Positions 27,918 through 31,537 of a stretch of DNA of 64,000 nt are shown here, piece after piece; positions within the stretch are counted from its first letter, which is position 1; each line of letters begins with the position of its first letter. The notes beneath the pieces were generated by a model, which was not told the origin of the DNA, searched no databases, and saw only the letters and a program-made list of their open reading frames with translations. The position numbers and the translations under genes were made by a program. This DNA comes from Candidatus Aquidulcis sp. (GTDB taxonomy: Bacteria; Chloroflexota; Anaerolineae; UBA4142): assembly GCA_020723345.1 (NCBI GenBank), contig DYJA01000010.1, forward strand, positions 1-64,000. Reading direction: 5' to 3'.

Positions 27918-28619
27918 CTAAAACCTTTTCCACGCGACAACTTGGGAAAAGAGCGCGCGCAAGAAATCCGCGCCCGCGTCCGACGCGTCTTGATCGGTCG
28001 AAATGACGGGAATGTGCAAGCGCATCGTCAGCACGCCCTGCTCTGGATCGCGATTAAAGTCGGACCAGAGATACCAGTAAAACACGACGCGCCGTTCTCG
28101 GTCTTTTGCCAAGATCGCTCTTTGAACGCGGATGCTCTTGTCGCCAATCAGAATCGGAATGACTCCGCTTTCGACGAGTGTCCAGCCCGCCGCGGGGTAC
28201 GACGTGATCGGCGTGTGCTCGAACAAAACGTAACTCTTGGCGCGGCGACTGCCGAACACGGAGAACCAGAGTTGATGTCCGCGCGCGTCGCGATAGATGG
28301 ACGAGAGCGCGAGGTCGGGATTTTCAAACCACTGGTCCACTTCGGTTCCGAGTTGAATCGGCGAACTCGTCCACTGTCCCAGCGCGGCAGGCAGCGCTTT
28401 CAATCCGTCAATCGTCAAATCGAGTGGAGTCGCGACCGCGCTTTCGTTAGGCGTGATTTCGTACCAGCCCGCCACGTCGACGAGGTACGTGTTCAGTCGC
28501 GCAAAATCGGCGGCGCGCGGTGGCGCGGGCGTTGGGCGCGTGGCGATCAACGCGACGGCGATCCCAGTCGCGATCAAAATCGCCAACAGAAAAATGTGTC
28601 GGCAGGGGAGTTGTTTCAT
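27918..28619 (-). CDS. Exosortase-associated EpsI-family protein
   Basis: 233 residues. One N-terminal membrane helix (HIFLLAILIATGIAVALIA) and an extracytoplasmic domain with the family pattern VAGWYEITPN, WFSVFGSRRAKSYVLFEH and VFYWYLWSDF. EpsI-like proteins (DUF3485) are encoded with or fused to exosortases. It overlaps the exosortase gene by 4 bp, so they are made together. Confidence 0.78.
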   Translation of the reverse strand: MKQLPCRHIFLLAILIATGIAVALIATRPTPAPPRAADFARLNTYLVDVAGWYEITPNESAVATPLDLTIDGLKALPAALGQWTSSPIQLGTEVDQWFENPDLALSSIYRDARGHQLWFSVFGSRRAKSYVLFEHTPITSYPAAGWTLVESGVIPILIGDKSIRVQRAILAKDRERRVVFYWYLWSDFNRDPEQGVLTMRLHIPVISTDQDASDAGADFLRALFSQVVAWKRF

Positions 28620-29443
28620 GTTGGTAACACGGCATCCCAGCGTACCTGTCCCGCGCCGACGAGTTTGGCAAGCAGCAAAACGAGCGCGAACGCGCCGAGA
28701 AACAGGACCGGGCTAGACCAGGAGTGGAAATATTCCAGCCCCGCGCCTTCGCCCCACGCGCTCGCAATCGCAAACAAGAGCGTGATGCGAAGCGTGTTCG
28801 CGGACAGCGCGATCGGAATCGCCGCGAGCAGAATCAGCGCGCGCGCCCACCATTGTCCTTGAACGATGTACGCCAACAACGCGACGAGCGTGACGATGGC
28901 GATGATCGAACGCAAGCCGCCGCACGGAATCCCAACGGTGAACGTCGAATTCGGCAGAAACACTTGCGCGCCATCGTTGCGCGCGACAATGCCAATCCAC
29001 TGTGCGAGCGTCGTCGCGCTGGACGCGGCGAAACTTTCGAGCGGCGGTCCCACGCGTTCGGCGATGGGCAGGGGAATCATGAAAATGAGAAACGCGAGCG
29101 GAAACCAGAACCGCCGCGCGGTCTGCCAGCCGTAGAGCGCGATCAGCAGACCCAGGAGCGCGAGCGGCATCATCAGCGCGGAGATGTAGTACGCGCGCCA
29201 CAGCAGCGCCCAGAGATGCGCGGCAAGCGCGGCGATGACAATTACCAATCCCCAATTACTTGGAGCAGGAGTAACGCGCGCCAGGGATTGCCGGCGCGTC
29301 CACGCAAAATAGAGCGCGACGAGCAGCACGAGCGGTCCGTGCGAATAGTACGGATCGCCGAGCCACGCTTCGCCTAGCCAAAGCCAGGTTGGCGCAAAAA
29401 GCAAAATCGTCGCAAGAAAAATAATTGCGTTGAGAGGTTTCAT
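28616..29443 (-). CDS. Exosortase (PEP-CTERM sorting transpeptidase)
   Basis: 275 residues, about eight membrane helices. The presumed catalytic Cys and Arg are in GIPCGGLRSI, a second Arg in SANTLRITLLF, and a His in LEYFHSWSSP. The family processes C-terminal PEP-CTERM signals. The start ATG at 29443 (MKPLNAIIF) lies 7 nt after TATAAT, suggesting a leaderless mRNA. The likely substrate is encoded next door at 29549-30256. Confidence 0.85.
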   Translation of the reverse strand: MKPLNAIIFLATILLFAPTWLWLGEAWLGDPYYSHGPLVLLVALYFAWTRRQSLARVTPAPSNWGLVIVIAALAAHLWALLWRAYYISALMMPLALLGLLIALYGWQTARRFWFPLAFLIFMIPLPIAERVGPPLESFAASSATTLAQWIGIVARNDGAQVFLPNSTFTVGIPCGGLRSIIAIVTLVALLAYIVQGQWWARALILLAAIPIALSANTLRITLLFAIASAWGEGAGLEYFHSWSSPVLFLGAFALVLLLAKLVGAGQVRWDAVLPT

Positions 29444-29450
29444 CGCACCC

Positions 29451-29478
29451 ATTATACTTGAGTCGGCGTGAGATACAA
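29451..29478 (-). promoter_or_regulatory. Promoter giving a leaderless exosortase mRNA
   Basis: Minus strand TATAAT (29456-29451) is preceded at 16 bp by TTGTAT and followed 7 nt later by the exosortase ATG, so transcription should start at or next to the start codon. Confidence 0.55.
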
Positions 29479-29499
29479 AAAAGCGCGCGCGTCCCACAA

Positions 29500-29537
29500 A
29501 AAGACCTTCGAGGATTCACAAAACCTCGAAGGTCTTT
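29500..29537. terminator. Terminator hairpin between lectin and exosortase genes (family C)
   Basis: AAAGACCTTCGAGG / ATTCACAAAA / CCTCGAAGGTCTTT, a perfect 14-bp stem. It separates the PEP-CTERM gene from the exosortase gene, consistent with each having its own promoter. Confidence 0.85.
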
Positions 29538-30256: not shown

Positions 30257-30269
30257 TTTTCCTCCTTGG

Positions 30270-30332
30270 GACAAAGAAATTTGGAATAAAAAAACATTCG
30301 CCAAACGCAAATTCCTGCGTTCAAGCGAATGT
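30270..30332 (-). terminator. Hairpin plus T-tract inside the lectin gene leader
   Basis: On the minus strand ACATTCGC (30332-30325) and GCGAATGT (30301-30294) enclose an inner AACGCA / TGCGTT stem and run into TTTTTTT. It lies between the promoter and the start codon, so it could act as an attenuator. Confidence 0.6.
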
Positions 30333-30469
30333 AATACGAAAAATAATCGGCGCAAAATTATCCGTGGTTGTGTCGCGCAACATTGCGTTGGCTTTCATGT
30401 GCTACCTTGTCGCGGAAAAACTGACGGCGAGTCAGAATCACGATCGCGCATCGAATAGTTTATGCTTAC

Positions 30470-30496
30470 ATTATAACACGGGGGGGGGATTGTCAA
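30470..30496 (-). promoter_or_regulatory. Promoter with poly-C spacer (candidate phase-variable)
   Basis: Minus strand TTGACA (30496-30491), a 15-bp spacer AT-C9-GTGT, and TATAAT (30475-30470). Both hexamers are perfect. The spacer is 2 bp short of optimal and made mostly of a homopolymer, the arrangement of slipped-strand switchable promoters. It drives the PEP-CTERM lectin gene 214 bp downstream. Confidence 0.7.
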
Positions 30497-30577: not shown

Positions 30578-30606
30578 TTGACACTCGATTTCATCTGACG
30601 TATAAT
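30578..30606 (+). promoter_or_regulatory. Consensus sigma-70 promoter of the DUF4160/DUF2442 module
   Basis: TTGACA, exactly 17 bp, TATAAT, ending 17 bp before the ATG at 30624. An additional TATAAT lies at 30559-30564. Confidence 0.85.
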
Positions 30607-30623: not shown

Positions 30624-30947
30624 ATGATTCCTACCGTGCCTGTGCTTGCTCCCGAAATCGCCCTCCAAGATCCTTGGCTAACCTTAATGACGTTCCGACG
30701 ACTGGTCACGCCGATTCCCTCCGTCGAAGCAATTCTCGCGCGTGATCGCGGCTGGGGACTCGACGTGTGGACGCTCGTTCACCAGTCTAATGTTGACGCG
30801 CGCGACACGCTCGCTCAGCAACAATGGGAATTTATGCGCTTGTATCCTAACGTGGACATTGACTTTCACATCGTCGACCGCCGCGATCAACCGCTCGAAA
30901 CGTTCGTCTCGCCCGCCGAATACGATCTTTACTTGCGCGTCAGGTGA
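30624..30947 (+). CDS. Small protein of unknown function, first gene of a TA-like module
   Basis: 107 residues, not recognised. It contains VTPIPSVEAILARDRGWGLDVWTLVHQSN and a Tyr/Asp-rich second half (LYPNVDIDFHIVDRRDQPLETF). The N-terminal half is mildly amphipathic; there is no signal peptide. TGAGG precedes the ATG. It is co-transcribed with DUF4160 and DUF2442 genes and has a consensus promoter, so a regulatory or TA role is plausible but unproven. Confidence 0.6.
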   Translation: MIPTVPVLAPEIALQDPWLTLMTFRRLVTPIPSVEAILARDRGWGLDVWTLVHQSNVDARDTLAQQQWEFMRLYPNVDIDFHIVDRRDQPLETFVSPAEYDLYLRVR

Positions 30948-30951
30948 CCCG

Positions 30952-31212
30952 ATGCCCGATGTCAGCCGATTTTTCGGAATTGTGATTTACATGTATTTCA
31001 ACGACCATTTGCCGCCGCACTTTCACGCCGAGTACGGCGGGAGCGAAGCATTGTACGAAATTGAGACCTTGCGCGTTTATAGCGGTCGAGTTCCACGGCG
31101 CGTTCACAACATGGTTATCGAATGGGCGGACTCCCATCGCGCCGAATTGATGGAGAATTGGGTTCGCGCAAGACAAGGGCAATCCGTCGTTGACATCGAG
31201 CCACTCGATTGA
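30952..31212 (+). CDS. DUF4160 protein
   Basis: 86 residues. MPDVSRFFGIVIYMYFNDHLPPHFHAEYGG is the family signature (HxxPHFH), with IETLRVYSGRVPRRV following. DUF4160 proteins are almost always encoded before DUF2442 and are suspected toxins or partners in TA-like modules. It starts 4 bp after the preceding stop. Confidence 0.82.
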   Translation: MPDVSRFFGIVIYMYFNDHLPPHFHAEYGGSEALYEIETLRVYSGRVPRRVHNMVIEWADSHRAELMENWVRARQGQSVVDIEPLD

Positions 31213-31240
31213 GCAGAGCGGCAAGAAAGGATAGAAAGCA

Positions 31241-31537
31241 ATGAACCAAGAAAGACCTGTTCGGATTCGCGCGGTTCAAGTGCTGGAAGACTTCACCGTC
31301 CGTCTCGAATTTACCGATGGCACGCACAAGGAGATCGATTTGGAGGTCTATCTGCACGGACCAATATTCGAGCCGATTCGCAACGACCCACAGATCTTCC
31401 GTTCGATGAAGGTTGACCCACGTATGGGAACAATCGTTTGGGATAATGGCGCAGACATTGACCCTGATGTGCTTTATTATGGGCTCAAACCAGCATGGAT
31501 GGAAATGGAACAAGAGTTGGCTCACCAAGCCGCCTGA
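31241..31537 (+). CDS. DUF2442 protein
   Basis: 98 residues. VRIRAVQVLEDFTVRLEFTDGTHKEIDL and GTIVWDNGADIDPDVLY are characteristic of DUF2442, the usual partner of DUF4160. Function in the family is not established; antitoxin is the common suggestion. An AAGGA site precedes the ATG. Confidence 0.82.
   Translation: MNQERPVRIRAVQVLEDFTVRLEFTDGTHKEIDLEVYLHGPIFEPIRNDPQIFRSMKVDPRMGTIVWDNGADIDPDVLYYGLKPAWMEMEQELAHQAA

Follow-up and report, generated by a model that had tools for sequence, protein, structure and literature searches.

Gene content of the lectin locus

The window (the whole stretch of 64,000 nucleotides analyzed here) carries on its minus strand a gene for a C-type-lectin-domain protein, followed by genes for an exosortase and an EpsI-like exosortase-associated protein (Table 1). 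The lectin fold is placed by sequence matches to Pfam and to PDB structures: PF00059 scores 34.2 bits against a curated cut-off of 22.6, and C-type lectins in the PDB match the protein with its DPN and WND motifs in the usual places. In the alignment they fall opposite EPN and WND, the sugar-site motifs in the lectin domain of CD23. The N-terminus resembles a signal peptide. By inspection, the C-terminus, VPEADTLLLLGGGMSGLGVWLRWQWSKRGQR, comprises a PEP motif, a hydrophobic stretch and a basic tail, and the tail sequence VPEADTLLLLGGG...WSKRGQR recurs in PEP-CTERM proteins of relatives. Searches against the Pfam and NCBIfam PEP-CTERM models returned no match above cut-off. Because the protein combines a signal-peptide-like start, a lectin domain and a PEP-CTERM-like tail, and an exosortase is encoded next door, we infer that it is surface-exposed. 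This agrees with the initial annotation, which had described an exosortase-sorted lectin, and the adjacent EpsI gene is in keeping with that description.

A strong terminator-like hairpin follows the lectin stop codon, which makes it probable that the gene is monocistronic and has the promoter to itself. The predicted leader contains a further terminator-like hairpin and U run, located just upstream of the lectin ribosome-binding site, which is a possible attenuator. Similar hairpins lie upstream of PEP-CTERM genes in the congener G001, in G004 and on contig C107 of the source genome. As the background for such upstream hairpins is about 1 gene in 8 in the source genome, the idea that they form a PEP-CTERM-specific element is only suggestive. 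No Rfam family or riboswitch was found in the leader; matches to the Rfam mir-3202 and S4-leader families fell far under cut-off and were rejected.

Divergent from the lectin promoter is a perfect promoter with a 17-bp spacer (window positions 30578-30606, plus strand). Behind it, at 30624-31537 on the plus strand, lie genes for a small protein and for a DUF4160/DUF2442 pair. The pair resembles the DhiT/DhiA toxin-antitoxin system, with scores under the NCBIfam cut-offs.

Table 1. Features of the lectin locus, in window coordinates.
Feature	Position	Strand	Basis
EpsI-like exosortase-associated protein	27918..28619	-	PF11984; TIGR02914 above cut-off
Exosortase (sorting enzyme)	28616..29497	-	PF09721, 6.7e-53; NCBIfam subfamily TIGR02602 above cut-off
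Terminator-like hairpin between lectin and exosortase genes	29499..29537	-	z -4.3, U5 tail
C-type-lectin-domain PEP-CTERM-type surface protein (predicted), 235 aa	29552..30256	-	PF00059 and tail
Predicted 5' leader, about 207 nt	30257..30463	-	Position of the -10 box
Terminator-like leader hairpin then U run, candidate attenuator	30288..30332	-	About -20 kcal/mol, z -4.9
Extended -10 TGT-TATAAT (TATAAT at 30475-30470)	30470..30478	-	Sequence
C9 homopolymer in spacer, proposed slippage tract	30480..30488	-	Sequence; one of three C9/G9 runs genome-wide
-35 box TTGACA	30491..30496	-	Sequence; among 100 perfect-box promoters of the genome

The lectin promoter in its genomic context

Read along the minus strand from 30496 to 30470, the lectin promoter is TTGACA-AT-CCCCCCCCC-GTGT-TATAAT, where CCCCCCCCC is a run of nine C. 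The initial annotation had claimed perfect TTGACA and TATAAT boxes with a 15-bp spacer that includes nine C, and this proved exact when the sequence was re-checked. Inspection also bears out the porA/opc-type layout it proposed, with the C9 homopolymer sitting between the two boxes of a sigma-70 promoter. The annotation did not mention that TGT directly precedes TATAAT, which makes this an extended -10; TGn is found at this position in 21 of the 99 other perfect promoters of the genome. A pattern search between the C9 tract and the lectin ATG found no second minus-strand promoter match.

The genome is a single draft assembly of 6.34 Mb in 132 contigs, and genome-wide work consisted of pattern searches. 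We defined a perfect promoter as a TTGACA/TATAAT pair 10-24 bp apart and used the reversed pattern as a control. The genome contains 100 such pairs against 0 in the control, indicating that perfect pairs are real promoters. Among the other 99, the spacer is 17 bp in 58, 16-18 bp in 95 and 15 bp in none, which confirms for this genome the 17-bp optimum assumed in the initial annotation and leaves the lectin promoter alone among the 100 in its 15-bp spacing. The other 99 spacers contain no G or C run longer than 5. Because none of these promoters has a spacer with six or more C, we discarded the idea that poly-C spacers are a fixed motif in this genome. Only three runs of nine or more G or C are present in the 6.34 Mb: in the lectin promoter, in the coding sequence of a proline-rich lipoprotein and at a contig end. 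By chance, one of three runs would fall in any of the 100 perfect spacers with a probability of about 4e-4; taking 3000 promoters instead raises this to about 0.013.

The corresponding position in related genomes

In G001, a member of the same genus, the orthologous exosortase shares 67% identity with that of the window, and directly upstream of it lies a PEP-CTERM gene encoding a legume-type lectin domain and an Ig-like domain. This protein has no significant similarity to the window lectin, and its gene is preceded by TTGACA-G13-A-TATGGT. Since slippage cannot turn poly-C into poly-G, the two tracts at this slot probably have separate origins, which argues for use rather than inheritance. 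A member of another genus, G011, has two copies of the gene arrangement with a 17-bp spacer and without a tract. The G13 tract at the syntenic slot of G001 speaks for a switch, although it is poly-G and precedes a different gene; G011, which lacks a tract, speaks against one. Queries of 60 relatives with the promoter and leader DNA of the lectin gave no homologue beyond a 25-bp match, so the window promoter cannot be aligned directly; a contig search with exosortases added one distant match to the relatives already compared.

Other tracts were noted in these genomes. G001 has a second site, TTGACA-GAAATC-G11-TATAAT with a 17-bp spacer (C101:45-73; L204/L110), where the contig ends 44 bp past the -10 box and the downstream gene is lost. 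At a similar place, two genomes of the family carry TTGACATAA(C)-Gn, the run being G14 in one (L072 around 1501, from G010 C265) and G11 in the other (L088 around 1456, from G009 C58); neither has a -10 box, and the poly-G may lie inside a coding region or at its end.

Tract promoters across Anaerolineae

We surveyed 396 genomes, taken to be Anaerolineae, for TTGACA, up to 8 bp, a G or C run of at least 9, up to 8 bp, and TANNNT. The pattern occurs at 54 sites in 41 of the 396 genomes (38 G-tract sites in 27 genomes and 16 C-tract sites in 14), and the reversed-pattern controls gave 1 (G) and 0 (C). Spacing at these sites departs from the usual optimum: 8 of 19 tract promoters with a perfect -10 box have spacers of 16-18 bp, with a range of 13-25 bp, compared to 226 of 245 tract-free promoters from the source genome and six others (p 3e-7).

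The genes behind tract promoters also differ from those behind controls. By a simple hydrophobicity rule, and with no gene call at 17 of the 54 sites, a signal or anchor sequence opens the first gene at 21 of 37 tract sites, and at 14 of 17 where the tract is at least 10 long. At off-optimum tract sites the first gene is secreted or anchored in 19 of 24 cases versus 4 of 36 control promoters (p 2e-7). Counted once per genome, the off-optimum figure is 15 of 19 (p 8e-7) and that for tract sites at 16-18 bp is 2 of 13. The window locus was left out of these counts, as an overlapping plus-strand ORF is longer than the lectin gene. Domains encoded behind tract promoters include beta-propellers, RHS-like, FGE-sulfatase, solute-binding and LVIVD domains. 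A C9 tract with a 17-bp spacer also precedes housekeeping genes, among them those for ribosomal protein L21 and for a prolyl-like class II tRNA synthetase. We therefore rejected the notion that every poly-C promoter is a switch, and C9 alone is no proof of one.

Some individual sites deserve description. One genome (G638) contains four near-identical G9-G10 promoters (L170-L173), three of which precede large related secreted proteins, with beta-propeller repeats in the one scanned; the fourth stands before a truncated copy, giving the impression of a duplication of promoter plus signal sequence. In two genomes of one family (L194 and L197; G609 and G593), homologous LuxR-type response regulators lie behind G11 and G9 spacer tracts, and a switch acting on such a regulator would affect many genes.

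Changes in tract length between homologous promoters

Tract length varies between homologous promoters of the same site class. In the sister species G718 and G739, the promoter of a redoxin gene occurs with both G9 and G7, one in each species. All 57 bases upstream of this tract are identical, as are 99 of the 100 downstream, and the tract holds the sole gap across 786 aligned bp. An orthologous promoter has C10 and C13 in G694 and G725, and in G497 tracts of G10 and G9 stand before the same downstream sequence. Between paralogues, G121 has G10 at one promoter and G12 at another (L174, L175).

The two G121 promoters precede RHS/SpvB-like secreted proteins that are 90% identical; they are alike from the -35 box onward, and the DNA upstream is unrelated. 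The redoxin-like promoter of G497 stands in two different upstream contexts (L180, L181). A redoxin-like promoter in G514 (L250) has an interrupted tract, GGGGGAGGGGGG, as if stabilized.

Interpretation of the lectin promoter

Taken together, these observations lead us to propose, with a probability of roughly two in three, that the lectin gene is read from a slipped-strand, phase-variable promoter of the sigma-70 type like those of Neisseria fetA, porA and opc. Slippage of the C9 run during replication would move the -35/-10 distance from 15 bp to 16-18 bp. A tract of C10 would give 16 bp and C11 would give 17 bp, C9 being two short of the genome optimum. At 15 bp the promoter would be weak or dependent on the extended -10, and at 16-18 bp it would be strong, so that cells of one clone would differ in the amount of exosortase-sorted C-type lectin displayed. 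The C9 state found in the assembly is probably the weak one. As the extended -10 may keep the 15-bp promoter partly active, a graded effect is as likely as an on/off one. The terminator after the lectin would confine the switch to that gene, leaving the exosortase and EpsI unswitched, and the leader hairpin would probably add conventional control. We infer the slippage and resulting change of expression, the direction of the effect and the attenuation. The initial annotation's central claim of a phase-variable promoter is partly borne out by the layout, the type of gene, the 17-bp optimum, the tract in the congener, the class-wide set of tract promoters and the changes of length between homologous members of that set; what does not carry it is the C9 run by itself. 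Against a switch, C9 is short, and the congener has poly-G instead, which means that descent has not preserved the tract itself.

A fixed promoter would account for the same boxes if the extended -10 functions at 15 bp, in which case the C9 would be an inert, GC-rich and rarely slipping spacer. The extended -10 may make the lectin promoter insensitive to spacing. The TGn found here recurs in about a fifth of the other perfect promoters of the genome (21 of 99), and the C9/17-bp tracts before housekeeping genes in relatives indicate that C9 can be static. We nevertheless regard this explanation as unlikely, given that the 15-bp spacing is unique among the 100 perfect promoters, C9 is very rare in the genome, the lectin is the surface type of gene favored by off-optimum tract promoters elsewhere, and a tract stands at the corresponding position in the congener. 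Still less probable, in our estimation, is conventional control by a regulator and leader-hairpin attenuation acting on a weak promoter in which spacing is unimportant. The strong hairpin and U run between promoter and ribosome-binding site fit such control, as do the comparable ones in front of PEP-CTERM genes in G001 and G004 and on contig C107, but with roughly 1 gene in 8 preceded by one the association is modest, no Rfam family was recognized in the leader, and the tract is left unexplained. Attenuation and promoter spacing could also coexist as two layers of control.

The tract length might instead be an assembly error that masks a constant spacer of 16-17 bp, since the locus comes from a single draft assembly of 132 contigs and homopolymers are error-prone under some sequencing chemistries. 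We give this the least credence of all. Nine C is short for a short-read consensus, the spacers of tract promoters scatter widely over independent assemblies, and the G718/G739 pair displays a clean 2-bp change with no further gap in 786 bp.

Homopolymer slippage as a means of switching promoters has been described chiefly in host-adapted pathogens. The literature searched, in which most subscription papers were missing, contained no account of it in Chloroflexi or Anaerolineae; the mechanism is already known, and its spread across Anaerolineae is without precedent in the papers searched. We lean slightly toward the view that Anaerolineae carry undescribed promoter contingency loci, in which G or C spacer tracts independently switch secreted and surface proteins such as lectins, beta-propellers, RHS-like proteins and FGE-sulfatase-domain proteins, and that in the genus of the window the slot beside the exosortase takes up different lectin genes, each with its own slipping promoter. 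If true, free-living bacteria would have a pathogen-like form of antigenic or adhesive variation, and uncultured Anaerolineae would diversify their surfaces at random, perhaps in response to phages, grazers or changing aggregate partners.

Comparison with known systems

A 2010 survey of prokaryote homopolymers covered tracts inside genes (PMC2831843). In the side-by-side presence of an exosortase, an EpsI-like protein and a PEP-CTERM-like substrate, the locus follows the known PEP-CTERM/exosortase sorting systems; it differs in that the promoter of its substrate carries a homopolymer, and the literature searched contained no paper linking a homopolymer promoter to this type of sorting. Among switches that act near promoters, the nadA-type distal-repeat switch is comparable in that the number of repeats near the promoter changes expression of an adhesin (PMC2791445).

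More direct parallels come from promoters with variable spacing. In titles of papers cited by PMC5084427, the -35/-10 spacing of porA is described as varying and opc as having a promoter with a size-variable poly-cytidine stretch, both genes encoding outer-membrane proteins of Neisseria meningitidis. Expression of these pathogen proteins has been measured, whereas the window lectin is predicted from sequence and, unlike them, would be PEP-CTERM sorted and has a leader hairpin. In gonococcal fetA (frpB), the length of a poly-C tract between the -10 and -35 boxes alters expression, and Neisseria fetA tracts range from 10 to 14 between strains (PMC5320596). The window locus differs in having C9 and an exosortase-sorted lectin, and in being known from one assembly of an uncultured member of the Chloroflexota; it resembles fetA in that both have a poly-C tract within a sigma-70 spacer, placed before the gene for a surface protein.
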